From positions 1 through 60,658 of the forward strand of contig JAAYRL010000017.1 of the NCBI GenBank assembly GCA_012518795.1: a DNA stretch of 60,658 nt. The letters are read 5' to 3'. The position numbers and the translations under genes are program-made. The notes under the pieces are model-generated. The model did not search any database, was not told the DNA's origin, and saw only the letters and a program-made list of their open reading frames with translations. Of the stretch, positions 24,361 through 44,941 are shown piece after piece. Every line of letters starts with the position of its first letter. Position 1 is the stretch's first letter. The DNA is from Clostridiaceae bacterium. Lineage in GTDB: Bacteria > Bacillota > Clostridia > Saccharofermentanales > DTU023.

Positions 24361-25104
24361 GTGAAAGATGATTATCCCGTAACATTCTTCGCAATGTTGT
24401 ACAGAATGAAATATATTGAGCGCTGGGGCTTGATGCGTAATACGGAAAAAGAAAATTTAAAAGAACACACTTTTGATGTTGCATTACTTTCTCATGCTTT
24501 GTGTGAAATACGCCAAGTCTATTTTCCGGAAGAACAGCCACAACTGAATTCAGGCCAGGTTGTTTTGTATGCTCTTTACCATGATGCAAGTGAAATCATT
24601 ACAGGTGATTTGCCTACACCGGTCAAATATTTTAATTCGCAAATGCGTTCTCAATACTCCAATGTCGAAAATTATGCAATTACACATTTACTAAATATGC
24701 TGCCTGAAAAGCTGCAACAACAATATGCTGAATATTTTCCTTGTGATGTAAATATTTTATCGAAAAATTCTAATTCGAACGAAAACGAGATTTCTGCAAG
24801 TAATGAATATTCTATAAATCAATCAAATTCTGCTGATATAGAAATTTCTGAAATTATTGAAGATAAGGGAATTTCCGAAAGGAAATATCTGCAAAAAATG
24901 CTTAAGCAAGCGGATCGGTTAGCGGCATATATTAAATGTATTATTGAAATAAAACAAGGTAATACCGAATTTGCAGATGCAGCAGAAGCAACTAAAGCAA
25001 AGTTGCTTAAGGACAGTTCGCCGGAATTACAATGGTTTATTAAGAATGTTTTGCCGGCTTATCAGCTAAATCTGGATCAATTGCAAGGAATGCAATCCGA
25101 ATAA
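24361..25104 (+). CDS. YfbR-like HD-domain 5'-nucleotidase
   Basis: This 247-residue protein opens with AMLYRMKYIERWGLMRNTEKENLKEH, which matches the YfbR/YfdR pattern RW.LMR....EN..EH, where the histidine starts the metal site. The HD pair is in ALYHDASEIITGDLPTPVKYF. E. coli YfbR (199 residues) dephosphorylates deoxyribonucleoside 5'-monophosphates. Here a Ser/Asn/Glu-rich insert of about 45 residues (roughly 135-180) explains the extra length, and KQADRLAAYIKC resumes the domain. The start is GTG with GAGGTG 5 bases upstream. With Dgt upstream it suggests a local interest in nucleotide-pool cleaning (inference). Confidence 0.88.
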   Translation: MKDDYPVTFFAMLYRMKYIERWGLMRNTEKENLKEHTFDVALLSHALCEIRQVYFPEEQPQLNSGQVVLYALYHDASEIITGDLPTPVKYFNSQMRSQYSNVENYAITHLLNMLPEKLQQQYAEYFPCDVNILSKNSNSNENEISASNEYSINQSNSADIEISEIIEDKGISERKYLQKMLKQADRLAAYIKCIIEIKQGNTEFADAAEATKAKLLKDSSPELQWFIKNVLPAYQLNLDQLQGMQSE

Positions 25105-25163
25105 ATTCAATATTGAATTTCATATTTCTATAAGACATATTTGAGATAAAAGTTTTTTCAATA

Positions 25164-25325
25164 ATAAACCGTCTGAGCGAGAGATTGCTGGAAAAATTCT
25201 AAAAAACTTGGCGAAATTAACGTTAGTGAATCGCATGTTCGAGGGCGTAAGCCCGAGTTTGCGATTCATAGGTAATGAGCCTTAGTTTTTGAATTTTTAT
25301 CAGCACATGAGATCAGACGGTTTAT
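25164..25325. repeat. Dispersed structured element, copy 1 (nested inverted repeats)
   Basis: This 162-bp element has perfect 13-bp outer arms (ATAAACCGTCTGA / TCAGACGGTTTAT). Inside is a second pair (TGCTGGAAAAATTC with GAATTTTTATCAGCA), then AAAACT/AGTTTT, and then a perfect 9-bp stem TGAATCGCA / TGCGATTCA. The innermost hairpin is GGGC-GTAA-GCCC, a GNRA-type loop. The core is shared with 42215-42377, but the outermost arms are different there and still pair. It occupies the 385-base gap between the YfbR-like gene and the dockerin gene. The rest of that gap is plain AT-rich DNA. Confidence 0.85.
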
Positions 25326-25489
25326 CTATTGAAATGAATATTTTATTACAAAACAATCTCTGATTTTGACTATTATTGCAACCAGTTTACAGACATAATA
25401 AATCTGTATCACGTACCGATTATCCTGTTATTAAGAGCTTTTCAACATGTTAAAATAATTTTTATAAGAACAACTGTTTGGAGTAGCTG

Positions 25490-27547
25490 ATGGATAGAGA
25501 ACGTGCCAAAAATATCAGTACAATTATTATTGTTGTCTTTTTGTTAAGCATAATTCCTTTCACTTTGCTTCTGAATCGAGAAACTGTAGCCGAATTAAAT
25601 TTTCCGATTGAAGCGAAGGTTATTGCTGTGCCCAGCCTTAATATCAGAAAAACTCCGGATTTATCGCAAAATGCGATTGGTTCAATTCCTACCGGGCAAG
25701 AGATTCTTCTTTTAGAACAGACTGAAGGTCAAGCGATTAACGGCGATACAAATTGGTATAGAATCGACTTCAAAAATCAGGATGGTTATGTTTCTGCTCA
25801 ATATGTTGAATTTGCACCTTGGGATATTGATTTACCTCCGACGGCAAATGATCAGGATTTTGAAAACTATCTTGAAGAGCAGGGTTTTCCTTATTCTTAT
25901 CGAGCCGGACTACATAAATTACATGAAAAATATCCGAATTGGATTTTTAAACCGATTAAATTAAATGTTGATTTTGACTCTGCAGTTAATGGACAATATA
26001 AACCTGACAGTTCAATTAATTTTGTTCCTGCTACATCAGAAGATGCTTTAAAGTCAACCTCATCTGCGGATTTTAATAAGGAAACTAATGAATGGATTCA
26101 GAAAGAATATGGTTGGGTTGCCGCGAGCAAAGAAATAATTGCTCATCAACTTGATCCGAGAAATTTTTTAGATGAACAGCATATCTTTCAATTTGAAAGT
26201 TTGAGCTATAATCCGGATGTTCAAAATTGGCAAGGTATTCGCAATCAACTGGCAGGAACATTTATGGATTCCGATGAATATGCCAATATTTTCTATAATG
26301 CAGCAGTGACTTCAGCAGTATCTCCTTATCATTTGATAGCCAGGGTCATCCAAGAAGTTTCACCTAACGGTTCCGGTTCTTCAAGCGGTACTTATCCCGG
26401 AGTTGAAGGTTATTACAATTTCTATAATATAGCTGCTTATGGCGCCGATCCGATCTACGAAGGTTTAAAATTCGCTCGAGACGGTTACCCAAAATATCCT
26501 GCCGTTAATGAGCGAATTCTGATTCCTTGGAATACACCTGAAAGATCAATTAAAGGAGGAGCTATCTTTTTAGGTAATGATTATATCAACAATTTGCAAA
26601 ACACTCTGTATTTTCAAAAATTCGACTTAAGACATGGTCCTGATTATTGGCATCAATATATGGCCAATGTATTTGCCCCGCAAAGTGAATCACGCACAAT
26701 TTATAATGCTTATGCAAGAGAAGGCAGTCTTACTGAACCGAAGGAATTTTTAATTCCGATTTTTACTTCGATTCCTGATTTACCCATACCTTACCCGACC
26801 GGAGGTTCGGGTACCCCGAATAACTGGTTGCGTTCAATCTCAATTGACGGTGCATTATTACCGGGTTTTCAAAGTTCTACCTATTCATATCAGTTGGAAG
26901 TAGATGCACCGAATTCTGAAATTACAATAGATGCAATCCCATACAATCCTTATGCCGGAGTTACCGGTCGAGGATCTTATTTTTTAAAAGAAGGTAAAAA
27001 TCCGATTTTAATTACGGTTACTGCAACTAACGGTGAAATTCGTAATTACGAAATAATTATTAATTACCATGGCGAAACAATGGCGGAAGTTCCGCGAGTT
27101 GAGAGTACGGTCTATCAAATCCAACAGGATGGCAACATTTACGGTTTAGATCCTGCACAAAATTTAAATTTGGTAGAAAATGCCTTGAGTAATATTACGA
27201 CTACAGACCAATATTCGTTGAGCATAGTGGATTTGTCCGATCAGGAAGTAACTCAAGGTTCAATTGCTACCGGGTATAAATTATTGCAAAAACAAAATGA
27301 TAATGTGGTAGGAAAATATACCTTTGTCGTATTGGGAGATGTGAATTGTGACGGTGATGTTGATATTTTAGATGTAGATTCAATTTATCGATACATCACA
27401 GGTTATTTGAATTTGAATGATGTGCAGCTGCTTGCTGCAAATGTTTTGCAAGATTCGGAAGTGGACATTTTAGATGCAGATCAGATTTACCGTTCTGTAT
27501 TTGGTTACATAAAAGTTTCTCAATATTTAGAACCGTTATCCGAGTAG
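25490..27547 (+). CDS. Dockerin-bearing SH3/glucosaminidase cell-wall hydrolase
   Basis: This 685-residue extracytoplasmic protein is modular. Residues about 9-28 are a membrane segment or uncleaved signal. A bacterial SH3 domain follows at about 38-108 (SLNIRKTP, NWYRIDF, GYVSAQYVEF). A beta-N-acetylglucosaminidase-like domain (GH73-related) spans about 115-420, with the likely catalytic Glu in LIARVIQEVSP and YYNFYNIAAYG after it. A cadherin-like beta-sandwich is at about 445-535. A type I dockerin is at about 618-680, where two Ca-loop modules read GDVNCDGDVDILDVDSIYRY and then VLQDSEVDILDADQIYR; the second has lost some loop residues. It should cleave peptidoglycan glycan strands while docked to a cohesin. 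The next gene encodes a cohesin. Confidence 0.88.
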   Translation: MDRERAKNISTIIIVVFLLSIIPFTLLLNRETVAELNFPIEAKVIAVPSLNIRKTPDLSQNAIGSIPTGQEILLLEQTEGQAINGDTNWYRIDFKNQDGYVSAQYVEFAPWDIDLPPTANDQDFENYLEEQGFPYSYRAGLHKLHEKYPNWIFKPIKLNVDFDSAVNGQYKPDSSINFVPATSEDALKSTSSADFNKETNEWIQKEYGWVAASKEIIAHQLDPRNFLDEQHIFQFESLSYNPDVQNWQGIRNQLAGTFMDSDEYANIFYNAAVTSAVSPYHLIARVIQEVSPNGSGSSSGTYPGVEGYYNFYNIAAYGADPIYEGLKFARDGYPKYPAVNERILIPWNTPERSIKGGAIFLGNDYINNLQNTLYFQKFDLRHGPDYWHQYMANVFAPQSESRTIYNAYAREGSLTEPKEFLIPIFTSIPDLPIPYPTGGSGTPNNWLRSISIDGALLPGFQSSTYSYQLEVDAPNSEITIDAIPYNPYAGVTGRGSYFLKEGKNPILITVTATNGEIRNYEIIINYHGETMAEVPRVESTVYQIQQDGNIYGLDPAQNLNLVENALSNITTTDQYSLSIVDLSDQEVTQGSIATGYKLLQKQNDNVVGKYTFVVLGDVNCDGDVDILDVDSIYRYITGYLNLNDVQLLAANVLQDSEVDILDADQIYRSVFGYIKVSQYLEPLSE

Positions 27548-27561
27548 TACAAGGAGTAAAT

Positions 27562-28986
27562 ATGAACAAATATATAAAACGGTTATTTTTATTATTAATA
27601 AGTTTATTGTATCTCGGAGTTTTGACGATCCGTCCGGTTTATGCTGCGAGTGCAGAATTTGTTATATCGGCGGAAAATGTGACTCCCGGTGAAAATATAA
27701 CAGTTTCAATTGTCAATCATAGTGGTATTGCGGTTACATCAGGTCAATTTGATATAGTGTATGATCCTGAACGTTTTGAAATTGTTGGAGCAACTTTATT
27801 CCAAGAAAGTGTAATGCCGGTTTATCTCAAAGAGGGAAGAACGGATATTTTCAGAATCTCCACATTACCTTTTGCACCGAATAATGCATATAGCGATGAG
27901 ATTATTACTTCAATTACTTTTAAATTAAAAGATTCGGCAGCCGGACAAGCAACTTTTAAATTAGAAAACTCGAAAATAGGTTATGGTGGTATTGATGAAA
28001 ACGTTCAAAATCTGCCGGTTAGTGGAAAGGATTTAGGGGTGAACATTCTCAACCCTGAACCCGGAGATTCGGTTGATCCGGGAGTGGAAATTCCTGAAAA
28101 ACCGGATCCGGATCCGCCACAACAACCGACAGAAACAGATCATTTACAACCGGAAGAACCTGAACCGAGCGAATCAGTTGAATCGAGCGAATCAACTGAG
28201 CCGAGTGAATCAACTGAGCCAAGCGAATCCACTGAACCGAGTGAATCAACTGAGCCAAGCGAATCCACCGAGCCGAGCGAATCAACTGAGCCAAGTGAAT
28301 CGACTGAGCCAAGTGAACCAATTGAGACAATTCAATTGATTGAACTGATCGAGTCAACTGAATCAGAAAAACCGATGGAGACTTCCCAACCGGACAGATC
28401 TGATAATTCGGATAACGTTATGAATAATCCGTCAGACAATGAAAACAAAGAAACTAATACAACAAGTTCGGATATTTTGGCAATTCAAACTGCCGATACA
28501 ACACAAGATGAAATAAAAATTGTTTCTACTTTAGCAGCCCCCGTTGTCACGGAAACAACAACTGCTCCGATTACCGAGCCTGCGATGAGCATGACTGCAG
28601 TTCAATCTATGGAAACTATCCCGACAATTGCTTTGGTTGCAATCACTTCAGGTGAAACCGAAGAAGTCATCCAAAACAATACTCAAACTACAACTGAACA
28701 AGATCAAGTGATTACTACTAAAACTGAACCGACGACGAGTGCTACAACTGTAAAACTGGTTCCTACAACTGTACAGCAAATTGTAGAAAATAGTCAAAAT
28801 ACTGAAATTAATACAATTAATACAAAAGAACAGAAACAAGCTAAACAAGAACACGCTTTCAAATTGACAGGTAATGAATTAAATCTTCATAATAAACTGA
28901 TGATGGGCGGCTTGGCTATCACAGCAGTAGGATCCTTAGGAACTCTGATATTTTTAATTATCAAAAATAATCTTAGACTAAGGTAG
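27562..28986 (+). CDS. Single-cohesin membrane-anchored surface protein (scaffoldin-like)
   Basis: This 474-residue protein has a signal peptide (residues 1-29, ending VYAAS) and one cohesin-like domain at about 31-160. Family features are VSIVNHSGIAVTSGQFDIVY, YDPERFEIVGA, and SITFKLKDSAAGQATFKLEN. A long linker follows, with eight or so PSESTE hexapeptides and then a Thr-rich tract. It ends in a hydrophobic helix (about 446-468) and a short basic tail. No LPxTG is present, so anchoring would be by the membrane helix rather than sortase. AAGGAG precedes the ATG, 14 bases after the dockerin gene. The pair probably fixes the hydrolase at the cell surface (inference). Confidence 0.8.
   Translation: MNKYIKRLFLLLISLLYLGVLTIRPVYAASAEFVISAENVTPGENITVSIVNHSGIAVTSGQFDIVYDPERFEIVGATLFQESVMPVYLKEGRTDIFRISTLPFAPNNAYSDEIITSITFKLKDSAAGQATFKLENSKIGYGGIDENVQNLPVSGKDLGVNILNPEPGDSVDPGVEIPEKPDPDPPQQPTETDHLQPEEPEPSESVESSESTEPSESTEPSESTEPSESTEPSESTEPSESTEPSESTEPSEPIETIQLIELIESTESEKPMETSQPDRSDNSDNVMNNPSDNENKETNTTSSDILAIQTADTTQDEIKIVSTLAAPVVTETTTAPITEPAMSMTAVQSMETIPTIALVAITSGETEEVIQNNTQTTTEQDQVITTKTEPTTSATTVKLVPTTVQQIVENSQNTEINTINTKEQKQAKQEHAFKLTGNELNLHNKLMMGGLAITAVGSLGTLIFLIIKNNLRLR
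28165..28320 (+). repeat. Tandem 18-bp coding repeats (PSESTE)
   Basis: About eight tandem 18-bp units encode PSESTE hexapeptides inside the cohesin gene. Third-base changes (GAG/GAA, AGC/AGT) distinguish the units, so the array is not freshly expanded. It gives a stiff, negatively charged, potentially O-glycosylated spacer between cohesin and membrane. Frames on the opposite strand here are artefacts of the repeat. Confidence 0.9.
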
Positions 28987-29004
28987 GAAGGCTATCTGTT
29001 CTTA

Positions 29005-29454
29005 ATGAATAAAACGGCAGTGGAGAAATTCCGTCGACGTGAATTTATTTTATATTTAATCAGTGGAATAATTGTTACGTTAACAAATTGGATAACCTAT
29101 TTTCTATTAGAAAATTTGGTTAAATTTCCTAGTTGGCGAATTTCAAATTTTATTTCAATCGGTTTTTCAATTTTGGTTGCGTATCTTTTGAACCGAATTT
29201 TTGTTTTTCGATCTGAACAAAGTATTTTTCCGGAAATATTCAAGTTTTTTGCCACAAGATTTTTGATTTCTTTTATTTTTGAGCATGGTTTAATGGAACT
29301 TTTGCTGACTGTAATCGGTTTTGATCCGAGAATATACATCTTCGGTTATGAATTACAAATCGTAAAAGTCTTGGGTTCAGTTTTTGTAGTTTTAGGAAAT
29401 TATTTCGTTAGTAAGTATCTGGTATTCGGAAAAAACAATGAAAAAAGGAATTAA
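29005..29454 (+). CDS. GtrA family membrane protein
   Basis: This 149-residue protein has four hydrophobic helices, as in the GtrA/DPMS family of small translocases and helpers for lipid-linked sugars. The family pattern is visible: YLISGIIVTLTNWITYFLLE at the start, then YLLNRIFVFRSE after helix two, and NYFVSKYLVFG at the end. Proteins of this family flip or help flip polyprenyl-phosphate sugars for cell-surface glycosylation. A neighbouring Ser/Thr-rich surface protein is suggestive, but no link is shown. The stop lies 5 bases before the FolC start. GGAAGG lies 14 bases before the ATG, a rather long spacing. Confidence 0.88.
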   Translation: MNKTAVEKFRRREFILYLISGIIVTLTNWITYFLLENLVKFPSWRISNFISIGFSILVAYLLNRIFVFRSEQSIFPEIFKFFATRFLISFIFEHGLMELLLTVIGFDPRIYIFGYELQIVKVLGSVFVVLGNYFVSKYLVFGKNNEKRN

Positions 29455-29458
29455 AGTA

Positions 29459-30988
29459 ATGACCGTAAAAGTATGTAAAAAAAGATATAAGAGTAGAAAA
29501 ATTGAAGGTATATATTGGTCTTTAGAAAAATCACTTGAATATTTGGCTGAAGCCAGAAAATTAGGGATCAGACCCGGTTTAGAAAGAATTGAAGAATTAT
29601 TAAAACGCTTGGGAAACCCGCAAAATGCTTGTCAGGTAATTCACATTGCAGGCACTAACGGCAAAGGTTCAATCAGTTCCATGTGTGCTTATATTGCAGC
29701 AAATTCAGGTTTACGTACAGGTCTTTTTACTTCGCCGCATTTAACAAATTTCAACGAACGGATTCGAATTATTGATGGACATGAAGGAATTCAAAACTTA
29801 TACAAAGATCCACGGTCATCAGAAATCAGTGATGACGATTTCGCGAAAACTTTAATGTTAATCGCTTATGAAATAGAAATAATGAGTGTCAAAGGTTTTG
29901 ACAGGCCAACCGAATTTGAAATGATTACTGCTGCTGCCTTTGTATATTTTGCAGAAATGAATTGTGATTTAGTTATCTTGGAAACAGGTATGGGCGGCAG
30001 GCTTGATTCTACTAATGTTGTTGAAAAACCAATTGCAACGATTATTTCAGCCTTGAGTTATGAACATACAGGTAGATTAGGCAGTAAGATATCACAAATA
30101 GCCTCGGAAAAAGCCGGAATTATGCGACCGAATGTACCTGTTTTTGTGTATAATCCTTTTGATACGGAACTGTCGGAAGCGGATGCATCTATTGTCAAAC
30201 AAACATTAACAGAGCAAGCTGCCAAAATCGATGCACCGTTGTCAATAGTCAGCAGGTCGGATATTGAATATCAATCGTCTTATTTAACAGGTCAAACTTT
30301 TAGCTATAAAGCGTCCGAACCCTTTCATATCCAATTAAGTGGTGACTATCAAGCCCAAAATGCAGCTTTGGCGATCGAAGCATGTCGTTTAATTATTAAA
30401 GATGAAAAATTGATTCAGAGTGGGATTTCTTTAGCAAAATGGGCGGGACGTTTGGAATGTATTTCACAGTCGCCTTTTATTTTGATTGACGGAGCTCATA
30501 ATCAACAAGGAGTTTACGGTTTAAATCAACATTTGGAAAAATTCCTCAAAGGTCGTAAGTTAGTAATTTTAATGGGCGTTTTACACGATAAAGATTATAA
30601 AGCAATGCTGGAGATTATTTGCAGTTCCAAGCTTTATGATATTGTTGAAATTATTTGTACTTGTCCGGATTTCCCACGTGCTCTTCAGGCAAAGAGCTTA
30701 GCGTTAGAATTTGCAAAATACTACAATCGGGAGAATTCACGTAATAATTCTCGAGAAGATTCAAGGAACCAATATGAAATTAAGGAATTGACTGAGCTGG
30801 AATCGAAAGATATTCCTCTGTATAATGATAAACAAATTTGGTTTACATCTGACAGAAAAATGGCAACTGAATTTGCTTATGAATTAGCATACAAAAAACG
30901 TTTACCCCTGGTAACATTTGGTTCGATTTATTTAATAGGCGAAGTCAGACCATATTTGCTTGATTTGTTGGAGGGATTAGATAATTGA
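29459..30988 (+). CDS. folC: Folylpolyglutamate synthase / dihydrofolate synthase
   Basis: This 509-residue ATP-dependent ligase adds glutamate to folates (and often to dihydropteroate). The P-loop is IHIAGTNGKGS (about residues 62-72). The omega-loop region LFTSPHLTNFNERIRI, LETGMGGRLDSTNVV, and the C-terminal DGAHNQQGVYGL are all present. It is longer than usual (about 430) because of a charged Asn/Arg/Glu insert near residues 415-440 and an extended N-terminus. I chose ATG at 29459, which has AAAAGGA upstream; ATG at 29438 overlaps the GtrA gene. The folate genes folB-folK lie some 14 kb downstream. Confidence 0.92.
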   Translation: MTVKVCKKRYKSRKIEGIYWSLEKSLEYLAEARKLGIRPGLERIEELLKRLGNPQNACQVIHIAGTNGKGSISSMCAYIAANSGLRTGLFTSPHLTNFNERIRIIDGHEGIQNLYKDPRSSEISDDDFAKTLMLIAYEIEIMSVKGFDRPTEFEMITAAAFVYFAEMNCDLVILETGMGGRLDSTNVVEKPIATIISALSYEHTGRLGSKISQIASEKAGIMRPNVPVFVYNPFDTELSEADASIVKQTLTEQAAKIDAPLSIVSRSDIEYQSSYLTGQTFSYKASEPFHIQLSGDYQAQNAALAIEACRLIIKDEKLIQSGISLAKWAGRLECISQSPFILIDGAHNQQGVYGLNQHLEKFLKGRKLVILMGVLHDKDYKAMLEIICSSKLYDIVEIICTCPDFPRALQAKSLALEFAKYYNRENSRNNSREDSRNQYEIKELTELESKDIPLYNDKQIWFTSDRKMATEFAYELAYKKRLPLVTFGSIYLIGEVRPYLLDLLEGLDN

Positions 30989-42214: not shown

Positions 42215-42377
42215 AAAAATCACTTAGAGATACATTTGCTGGAAAAATTCAGTAAAAACTTGGCGAAATTGTCGTTAATGAATCGCATGTTAGAGGGCAT
42301 AGCACGAGTTTGCGATTCATAGGCAATGAGCTTTAGTTTTTAGAATTTTTATCAGCTTGTATGAATAAGTGATTTTT
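42215..42377. repeat. Dispersed structured element, copy 2 (nested inverted repeats)
   Basis: The core (about 42236-42356) closely matches the core at about 25185-25304, including TGCTGGAAAAATTC, AACTTGGCGAAATT, AATCGCATGTT, TTTGCGATTCATAGG and AATTTTTATCAGC. The outer arms are different from copy 1 but pair perfectly here: AAAAATCACTTA (42215-42226) with TAAGTGATTTTT (42366-42377). The innermost GGGC/GCCC hairpin of copy 1 is degraded. It fills the 301-base gap between clpX (+) and the HAD gene (-), which converge on it. Confidence 0.85.
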
Positions 42378-43534: not shown

Positions 43535-44941
43535 GTGAAATTACCGCAACTTGAAGTTTATGCTATTGAAAAAACAGGTCGTAAATCAGCATATGGCTAT
43601 TTACAACAGGATGGCAGCAGAGTGATTTTGAAGCCGAAAAAGGATTTTTCCGATCAACAAGTAATCCGTTATCTTTATGAAATTCAGATGCAGGGGATAC
43701 CTCATATCTGGGGAGAAACGAAGTATCAAGAAGAAGAATACCTAATTGCATCTTGGATTGATGGTGAACAGATAAGTGCCGTCAATTTATCGAACGATAG
43801 AATTAATCAATTAATTTTTGATGTACTTGCTTTAATTGATAGATTGCGGGTAATCACCGGAATGTACTGGTTTTTTCTTGATCTGAAACCACAACATATA
43901 ATTTTAGATTCAGCCGGACGAATCAGTTTAATAGATTTTGAACATGTTGTAGTGTGCAAAGAGAAGAATATTTTGGTAGAGAACCTTAATCAGCTTGGCA
44001 TTTCACCGATCTACAGTTCTGCAGAGCTGAAGACAGGACAATTTTCTCAACAACACCATGAATACGCATTGGCGTTAATTTGGTTGAGCCTATTGAGTAA
44101 AAAGTCTATTGAGGATTTAACAATTAAAAACAGAAAAAGAATTTTACGCCAACTTGATCCACATATTAGGTTGAGAATAGAATCCGGTTTAAGAGGTGAG
44201 GGTATTCGCAAAAAATCAAAGGGGTCAAATGCTAATTCGAAAATTGTTGAAAACCTAACAAGTGAAGAAGTCATGGAAAATACTTCGACAATTGTGGCAT
44301 ATGAAAATGATGTTTCGCAAACTACTGAAAATGGTGATTCGCATACAACTTGTCTTGTTGATTCGACAACAGCACAGAATACTTTGCAACATAAATTGCA
44401 AAGTACAGCTCAAAATATTCCTGAGCAAAATGTGATTCAAAATAGCATTCTGCAAATAGTACAAAAACACATGCAAGATAATTTACTGATAGTTTCAGAA
44501 GATTATATCTGTGGTTATAAAGAACATAGATTTTTCGAATGTTATGATTCGAAGAAACAAGAAATTGTGATGCTTACAAATATAAAATCGATTATGCTCT
44601 GTGACTGTCATGCTTTACCGATTTTGGTTAATCTAAAATTGGCTTTTCTTAACTTTGGGAATGGTGTACCTGCTACATCTGAAATATTCCAAGAAATTAA
44701 TTTGTTTTCTCATGAATTACAGACTATAAATCTATTGACTAAGAATTTAGCTTCTCATATAGTTAAAAAGTACTTTATAACTGACTTGTATATATCAAAT
44801 GAGTATCTGAATTTATGTGGTTTTCCGACTTGCAGAAATTTTGATGCTCGACAAATTCAAGAATACAAATCAGGTGAATTTGCAATTAATTCAAAATTAA
44901 GAGATAAAATTTCAGAATATAAACACAGATTATGGAGATAA
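43535..44941 (+). CDS. Protein-kinase-like fold protein of unknown function
   Basis: This 468-residue protein has an N-terminal half that looks like a eukaryotic-type kinase. A beta-3 lysine is at Lys33 (VILKPKK), and the catalytic-loop segment FFLDLKPQHIIL includes Asp116 and Lys118. The metal Asp134 is in LIDFEH (DFE instead of DFG), and GISPIYSSAELK replaces GTPxYxAPE. The HRD histidine is Leu, and the loop asparagine is His121. A Gly-rich loop is not obvious. Residues about 215-310 are a polar, probably disordered stretch. The last 150 residues are a second domain I cannot name. AGGAG precedes the GTG start. The folB-folK gene follows after 4 bases. It may be an atypical kinase or a pseudokinase. 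Confidence 0.6.
   Translation: MKLPQLEVYAIEKTGRKSAYGYLQQDGSRVILKPKKDFSDQQVIRYLYEIQMQGIPHIWGETKYQEEEYLIASWIDGEQISAVNLSNDRINQLIFDVLALIDRLRVITGMYWFFLDLKPQHIILDSAGRISLIDFEHVVVCKEKNILVENLNQLGISPIYSSAELKTGQFSQQHHEYALALIWLSLLSKKSIEDLTIKNRKRILRQLDPHIRLRIESGLRGEGIRKKSKGSNANSKIVENLTSEEVMENTSTIVAYENDVSQTTENGDSHTTCLVDSTTAQNTLQHKLQSTAQNIPEQNVIQNSILQIVQKHMQDNLLIVSEDYICGYKEHRFFECYDSKKQEIVMLTNIKSIMLCDCHALPILVNLKLAFLNFGNGVPATSEIFQEINLFSHELQTINLLTKNLASHIVKKYFITDLYISNEYLNLCGFPTCRNFDARQIQEYKSGEFAINSKLRDKISEYKHRLWR

Follow-up and report, generated by a model that had tools for sequence, protein, structure and literature searches.

A dedicated cohesin–dockerin pair proposed to hold a SagB-like glucosaminidase at the membrane in Clostridia

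To our knowledge, almost everything known of cohesin–dockerin pairing comes from complexes that degrade polysaccharides; what, then, could such a pair do when the dockerin sits on a putative cell wall hydrolase and the cohesin on the membrane protein encoded next to it? This question is raised by two adjacent genes, a dockerin-bearing glucosaminidase gene and a cohesin anchor gene, found in a stretch of 60,658 nucleotides from a Clostridiaceae bacterium (contig JAAYRL010000017.1, positions 1–60,658, hereafter called the window). Our answer, to which we give a probability of roughly three in four, is that the locus encodes a dedicated, non-cellulosomal pair that keeps a SagB-like glucosaminidase at the membrane, in a role comparable to that of SagB–SpdC in Staphylococcus aureus.

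A glucosaminidase with a dockerin and its cohesin neighbour

Both open reading frames (ORFs) were confirmed, with 14 bases from the stop of the enzyme gene to the start of the anchor gene, just as a first, sequence-only reading of this DNA had described them. Their features are the following:

25490–27547, + strand: dockerin-bearing SagB-type glucosaminidase gene, 685 amino acids (aa) (ORF call and domain searches)
25490–25597, + strand: N-terminal hydrophobic segment, either a signal peptide (possible TVA/E cleavage site) or a signal anchor (sequence inspection and motif scan)
25634–25810, + strand: bacterial SH3 domain SH3_3, residues 49–107 (hmmscan, 42.1 bits)
26000–26743, + strand: SagB/AtlA-type glucosaminidase module, residues 171–418 (match to PDB 6fxp and 6u0o; NF052642)
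26354–26356, + strand: codon of the predicted catalytic Glu289 (alignment to SagB structures)
26831–27061, + strand: cadherin-like beta-sandwich domain, residues 448–524 (hmmscan)
27110–27325, + strand: X-like module before the dockerin, approximately residues 541–612 (AlphaFold model)
27332–27493, + strand: type I dockerin, repeat 1 from Asp617 (27338) and repeat 2 from Asn651 (27440) (PF00404 genome search and model)
27562–28986, + strand: cohesin anchor gene, 474 aa (ORF call and PF00963 genome search)
27562–27648, + strand: signal peptide ending in VYA (by inspection)
27640–28062, + strand: single cohesin domain, PF00963 match at 27658–27990 (profile searches and orthologue model)
28063–28890, + strand: Thr/Glu/Ser/Pro-rich stalk with six PSESTE units (sequence inspection)
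28897–28968, + strand: C-terminal transmembrane helix, approximately residues 446–469, then a short basic tail, KNNLRLR (sequence inspection)

Residues 171–418 of the enzyme match S. aureus SagB (PDB 6fxp/6u0o, E = 3e-12), with Glu289 aligned to the SagB catalytic Glu and invariant in the eight sequences compared; judged by these matches, the enzyme is a member of the SagB/AtlA-type glucosaminidase fold family with a conserved catalytic Glu. It is not SagB itself, as NF052642 (SagB) gives 63.7 bits over residues 186–409 against a curated cut-off of 425, and only the catalytic module is homologous. PF01832 did not recognise the module at E ≤ 0.01; the genome holds one strong match to the glucosaminidase profile and none to PF01832. 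The SH3, glucosaminidase-like and cadherin-like modules followed by a type I dockerin, all announced by the first reading, were all found, the glucosaminidase being SagB-like. For the X-like module, no similar solved structure was listed, the structure search having matched the dockerin part only.

The dockerin passes its threshold when the genome is searched (Dockerin_1, PF00404, residues 615–667, 25.5 bits for a cut-off of 22.9); in an hmmscan of the whole enzyme it scores 19.8 bits, below the cut-off. The AlphaFold2 model of the X and dockerin region has a predicted local distance difference test (pLDDT) score of 92 and a predicted template modelling (pTM) score of 0.87, and the modelled domain superposes on solved type I dockerins (2ccl_B, template modelling (TM) score 0.93, root-mean-square deviation 1.0; also 4uyp_B). 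As modelled, it is a type I dockerin, with two F-hand calcium repeats and the Dockerin_1 fold. Its calcium loops are not equal: loop 1, DVNCDGDVDILD, has complete ligands, while in loop 2, NVLQDSEVDILD, ligand position 1 has gone from D to N and position 3 from N to L, positions 5, 9 and 12 being kept. The loops are intact in the dockerins of most relatives, and the loss in loop 2 is therefore a lineage trait; we read the domain as a dockerin with one weakened loop, whose second loop may bind calcium less tightly.

Does this leave the dockerin with a single usable face? Across 38 dockerins, repeats 1 and 2 of one protein agree at recognition positions 10/11 in 79% of cases; repeats shuffled between proteins agree in 23%, and none of 5000 shuffles reached 79%. 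Similar agreement is seen at positions 14, 17 and 18, and far less at positions 4, 7 and 15. In the window dockerin, the two repeats are identical at 10/11 (I-L/I-L), 14 (D/D) and 17/18 (Y-R/Y-R), and such symmetry is what one would expect of two faces maintained for the same cohesin. The first reading had called the second loop degenerate, which holds for positions 1 and 3; its suggestion of a single-mode or weaker fit fares less well, as the recognition residues are the same in both repeats. This identity argues against a single-mode fit, without disproving it, and the recognition face is intact.

On the other side of the pair, the anchor protein scores 27.2 bits with PF00963 (cohesin) in the genome search, for a cut-off of 24.1, and 72 bits with a leave-out cohesin profile whose training set was limited to relatives with less than 35% identity. 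A full-length hmmscan of this protein gave no domain match, with the low-complexity stalk as suspected cause; whole-protein hmmscan mostly misses cohesin genes, and the PF00963 genome search and a custom profile were used instead. The modelled cohesin of an orthologue (locus L005, about 71% identical to the window) matches the cohesins 2vo8 and 2jh2 with E from 3e-9 to 9e-9, its best structural matches being these C. perfringens GH33 and NagJ cohesins. By profile, and by the fold predicted for its orthologue, the anchor protein thus carries a cohesin domain. This domain, the PSESTE/Thr-rich stalk and the C-terminal membrane helix are all as first read; no LPXTG sortase motif was found in the protein.

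A separate observation concerns the cytoplasmic tails of the cohesin anchors encoded by the downstream genes of loci L023–L049 and L051–L053, which end in lineage-specific motifs: DEDEL, DEI or EEI in the window family and PPPIKRI or KIRRVD in family f4. These endings suggest a cytoplasmic contact of some kind.

One pair per genome and its recurrence

In the genome (1.87 Mb, 94% complete), exactly one dockerin exceeds the cut-off and there is one cohesin, both being those of the window pair. Many other dockerins sharing this cohesin, the case that the sequence-only reading had set against its own proposal, are excluded by the genome profile search to within the approximately 94% completeness. 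Membership in a cellulosome was rejected, with one cohesin, one dockerin and neither a multi-cohesin scaffoldin nor multiple dockerin-bearing carbohydrate-active enzymes (CAZymes) in the genome. A scan of the rest of the window genes, apart from the small ORFs and a few more, found no polysaccharide-degrading CAZyme, in line with the early remark that no carbohydrate-active enzyme genes lie nearby.

The arrangement recurs well beyond this genome. The dockerin enzyme is followed by the cohesin anchor in four close relatives, and in a further three that share about 33% identity, from metagenome-assembled genomes (one contig ends inside the anchor gene). In a sample of 188 genomes of the order, a dockerin is found in 91 and exactly one in 77; with the paired-locus profile and PF00963, a cohesin lies directly downstream on the same strand in 71/91 of the dockerin genomes and 64/77 of the single-dockerin ones, the two domains being 108–247 nucleotides apart (median 151). 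Conversely, of the 78 cohesins that the profile detects, 71 come right after a dockerin, a figure biased towards adjacency because the profile was built from dockerin neighbours; PF00963 alone, which is independent, gives adjacency in 50 genomes, and in 39 of the 45 genomes that have one of each. One has to keep in mind that related sequences are not independent, so that all these tallies measure conservation and not the number of separate origins. Among the 13 single-dockerin genomes without an adjacent match, 4 have their dockerin at a contig end (G018, G179, G056 and, judged from its coordinates, G011); G039, G044 and G045 have no adjacent profile match but a divergent neighbour of the same layout.

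As for the cargo, 61 of 73 paired dockerins lie on or beside the glucosaminidase. In two f4 genomes (loci L073 and L074), the dockerin is on a separate RCC1-repeat protein encoded between the glucosaminidase gene and a cohesin-like anchor gene; these RCC1-repeat proteins end in the dockerin (L074, 1380–4352, minus strand; L073, 1764–4559), and the neighbouring glucosaminidase has none. At L064, L065, L068 and L069, the glucosaminidase module is apparently permuted, its C-terminal half preceding its N-terminal half; these enzymes still bear a dockerin, with the cohesin gene next.

Outside the order, the pair is present in families f11, f17, f28, f34, f50 and f68 of the class, and in f58 (L104) a cohesin-like gene lies, in divergent orientation, next to the gene of a dockerin-bearing enzyme. 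In the class sample of 391 genomes, 162 have a dockerin and 167 a cohesin, and the genomes richest in both (f27, f51) gave no SagB-dockerin match. The pair is thus a conserved system and not a local curiosity, recurring across an order and a class. As far as sequences can tell, the dedicated docking pair with a peptidoglycan hydrolase as cargo, as first proposed, is strongly supported: the sole dockerin and cohesin are adjacent, the arrangement recurs and the catalytic module is SagB-like.

The surrounding gene order is also conserved, with a 5′-deoxynucleotidase gene, the enzyme/anchor pair, a GtrA gene and a FolC gene. The last two are, in the window:

29005–29454, + strand: GtrA-family membrane protein gene, next in the conserved order (domain search and synteny)
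29438–30988, + strand: FolC-like ligase gene, next in the conserved order (domain search and synteny)

Rfam gave no match within 24900–29100, and promoter and terminator scans gave scores no better than shuffled sequence. Just upstream of the glucosaminidase gene lies a palindromic intergenic repeat (25141–25345, also at 42236–42356), resembling a miniature inverted-repeat transposable element (MITE) or a repetitive extragenic palindromic (REP) element, with 13-base perfect inverted arms (25164–25176/25313–25325) and about 15 similar copies elsewhere in the genome. Further away, the ORF at 43535–44941 joins a weakly protein-kinase-like N-terminal half to a GTP cyclohydrolase I C-terminal half and adjoins a FolB-HPPK fusion gene.

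Tether or positioner

How would such a pair work? In the mechanism that we favour, the glucosaminidase would be exported from the cell, and its C-terminal type I dockerin would bind the single cohesin of the neighbouring protein; this cohesin would stand on an extended stalk, with the protein fixed in the cytoplasmic membrane by its C-terminal helix. The SagB-like endo-N-acetylglucosaminidase would thereby be kept at a fixed distance from the membrane, in a position to cut new glycan strands; the stalk could set its reach into the wall, and the coupling would be a modular, calcium-dependent plug. From the homology of the enzyme and the topology of the partner, an action like that of SagB–SpdC is likely.

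Several observations weigh against this tether or fail to bear it out. In L005, the dockerin and cohesin genes share a frame, and the natural read-through chain was folded as one; the domains are good, with a pTM of 0.46 and no reliable placement of the dockerin relative to the cohesin. The window dockerin lacks the full set of calcium ligands in loop 2, so that its loops are not complete in both repeats. In rare exceptions, a dockerin has no recognised downstream cohesin: the single dockerins of G019 and of five genomes in genus g20, the remainder of the 13 above, and a second copy in G384 (L106). At the syntenic locus of the genera g20/g21, the glucosaminidase has no dockerin, and its partner keeps the cohesin-like domain, the membrane helix and the GtrA/FolC neighbours; the partner may thus do more than dock. 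Finally, the N-terminus of the window enzyme could itself be an uncleaved anchor.

Loci L083, L085, L086 and L111–L130 have syntenic dockerin-less glucosaminidases, mostly apparently membrane-anchored, whose partners combine a cohesin-like domain (PF00963 or by eye), a cadherin-like part and a membrane helix, with tails ending in PRRV in those read. L109 (1259–4006, minus strand) encodes a glucosaminidase with peptidoglycan-binding-like repeats in place of the dockerin, and its downstream membrane protein has no recognisable cohesin, possibly a joint loss. What is conserved is therefore the glucosaminidase together with its membrane partner, and the dockerin is their usual link.

It follows naturally to ask whether an uncleaved N-terminal helix already fixes the glucosaminidase in the membrane, the cohesin protein being an activator or positioner rather than a tether. 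The partner is indeed retained, in the same gene order, beside these apparently anchored enzymes, SagB of S. aureus is paired with a membrane protein that sets its orientation (PMC10581084), and the N-terminus of the window enzyme is ambiguous. However, a plausible AxA-type signal peptidase site (VQA, TQA, VYA, VHA) follows the hydrophobic segment in most dockerin-bearing relatives, while this segment is long and apparently uncleaved in most dockerin-less syntenic enzymes (the motif scan was crude, and both groups include exceptions), and the symmetry of the dockerin repeats implies selection for cohesin binding. We consider a positioner without tethering unlikely.

Could the two domains instead bind other partners, in the same cell, on a host or on a neighbouring cell, adjacency reflecting only a common operon? 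Rare dockerins without a neighbouring cohesin and cohesin-like domains without a dockerin would fit, but the genome offers no other dockerin or cohesin, and adjacency persists even at L074, where a different protein, the one with RCC1 repeats, has taken over the dockerin, which makes this very improbable. Least probable is a relic of a lost cellulosome, disfavoured in spite of the degenerate second loop and the clostridial kinship of the organism, as the sole dockerin of most genomes in the order is tied to a wall hydrolase, the loops are intact in most relatives, none of the window genes scanned nearby is a polysaccharide-degrading CAZyme and the dockerin- and cohesin-richest genomes of the class sample (f27, f51) yielded no SagB-dockerin match.

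Known systems and significance

The closest functional parallel is SagB–SpdC. SpdC is a polytopic, CAAX-protease-like membrane protein; it is not known to carry a cohesin, nor SagB a dockerin. Here, the proposed coupling is a cohesin–dockerin module, and the partner is a stalked protein with one membrane helix. The locus does not belong to the SagB–SpdC complex, its adjacent partner being a cohesin protein with one C-terminal helix; elsewhere, the genome contains three genes of the CAAX protease family (PF02517). The likeness is in the combination of a SagB-like glucosaminidase and a membrane protein: in S. aureus, SpdC holds and orients the enzyme, whose proposed role is to free newly made peptidoglycan by cutting nascent glycan near the membrane (PMC10581084).

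Other known pairs share only parts of this design. NagJ, NanJ and NagH of C. perfringens are also joined by non-cellulosomal, one-to-one cohesin–dockerin contacts, in which both partners are glycoside hydrolases (PMC12997984), whereas in the present pair the cargo is a wall hydrolase and the cohesin belongs to a membrane anchor. The cellulosome of Ruminococcus champanellensis contains dockerin-bearing cell wall hydrolases (PMC6403190), which attach to a multi-enzyme scaffoldin; the present system has a single cohesin and a single dockerin and lacks any scaffoldin. ScaE of R. flavefaciens, a cellulosome anchoring scaffoldin, likewise carries a single cohesin on a surface-anchored protein, but it is sortase-anchored and binds a scaffoldin (PMC2930009), in contrast to a membrane-helix protein in a genome without any. 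Solitary non-cellulosomal cohesins and dockerins have been surveyed earlier, according to a citing paper (Peer 2009, as cited in PMC4081043). We found no description of a dedicated pair for a SagB-like enzyme in the open-licence literature, which is weak evidence of novelty.

Since its genome has no second such pair, and many clostridial lineages keep the two partners side by side, cohesin and dockerin are probably also used one-to-one, to hold an enzyme that trims the cell's own wall. That the pairing served from ancient times, perhaps ancestrally, to keep a wall glucosaminidase at the membrane in Clostridia, with the cellulosome as a later expansion of this one-to-one lock, is a further step that we think quite doubtful. 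If the tether is real, many solitary cohesins and dockerins of non-cellulolytic Clostridia would gain a function, SagB–SpdC would have a modular counterpart, and the ancestral role of cellulosome parts would become testable.
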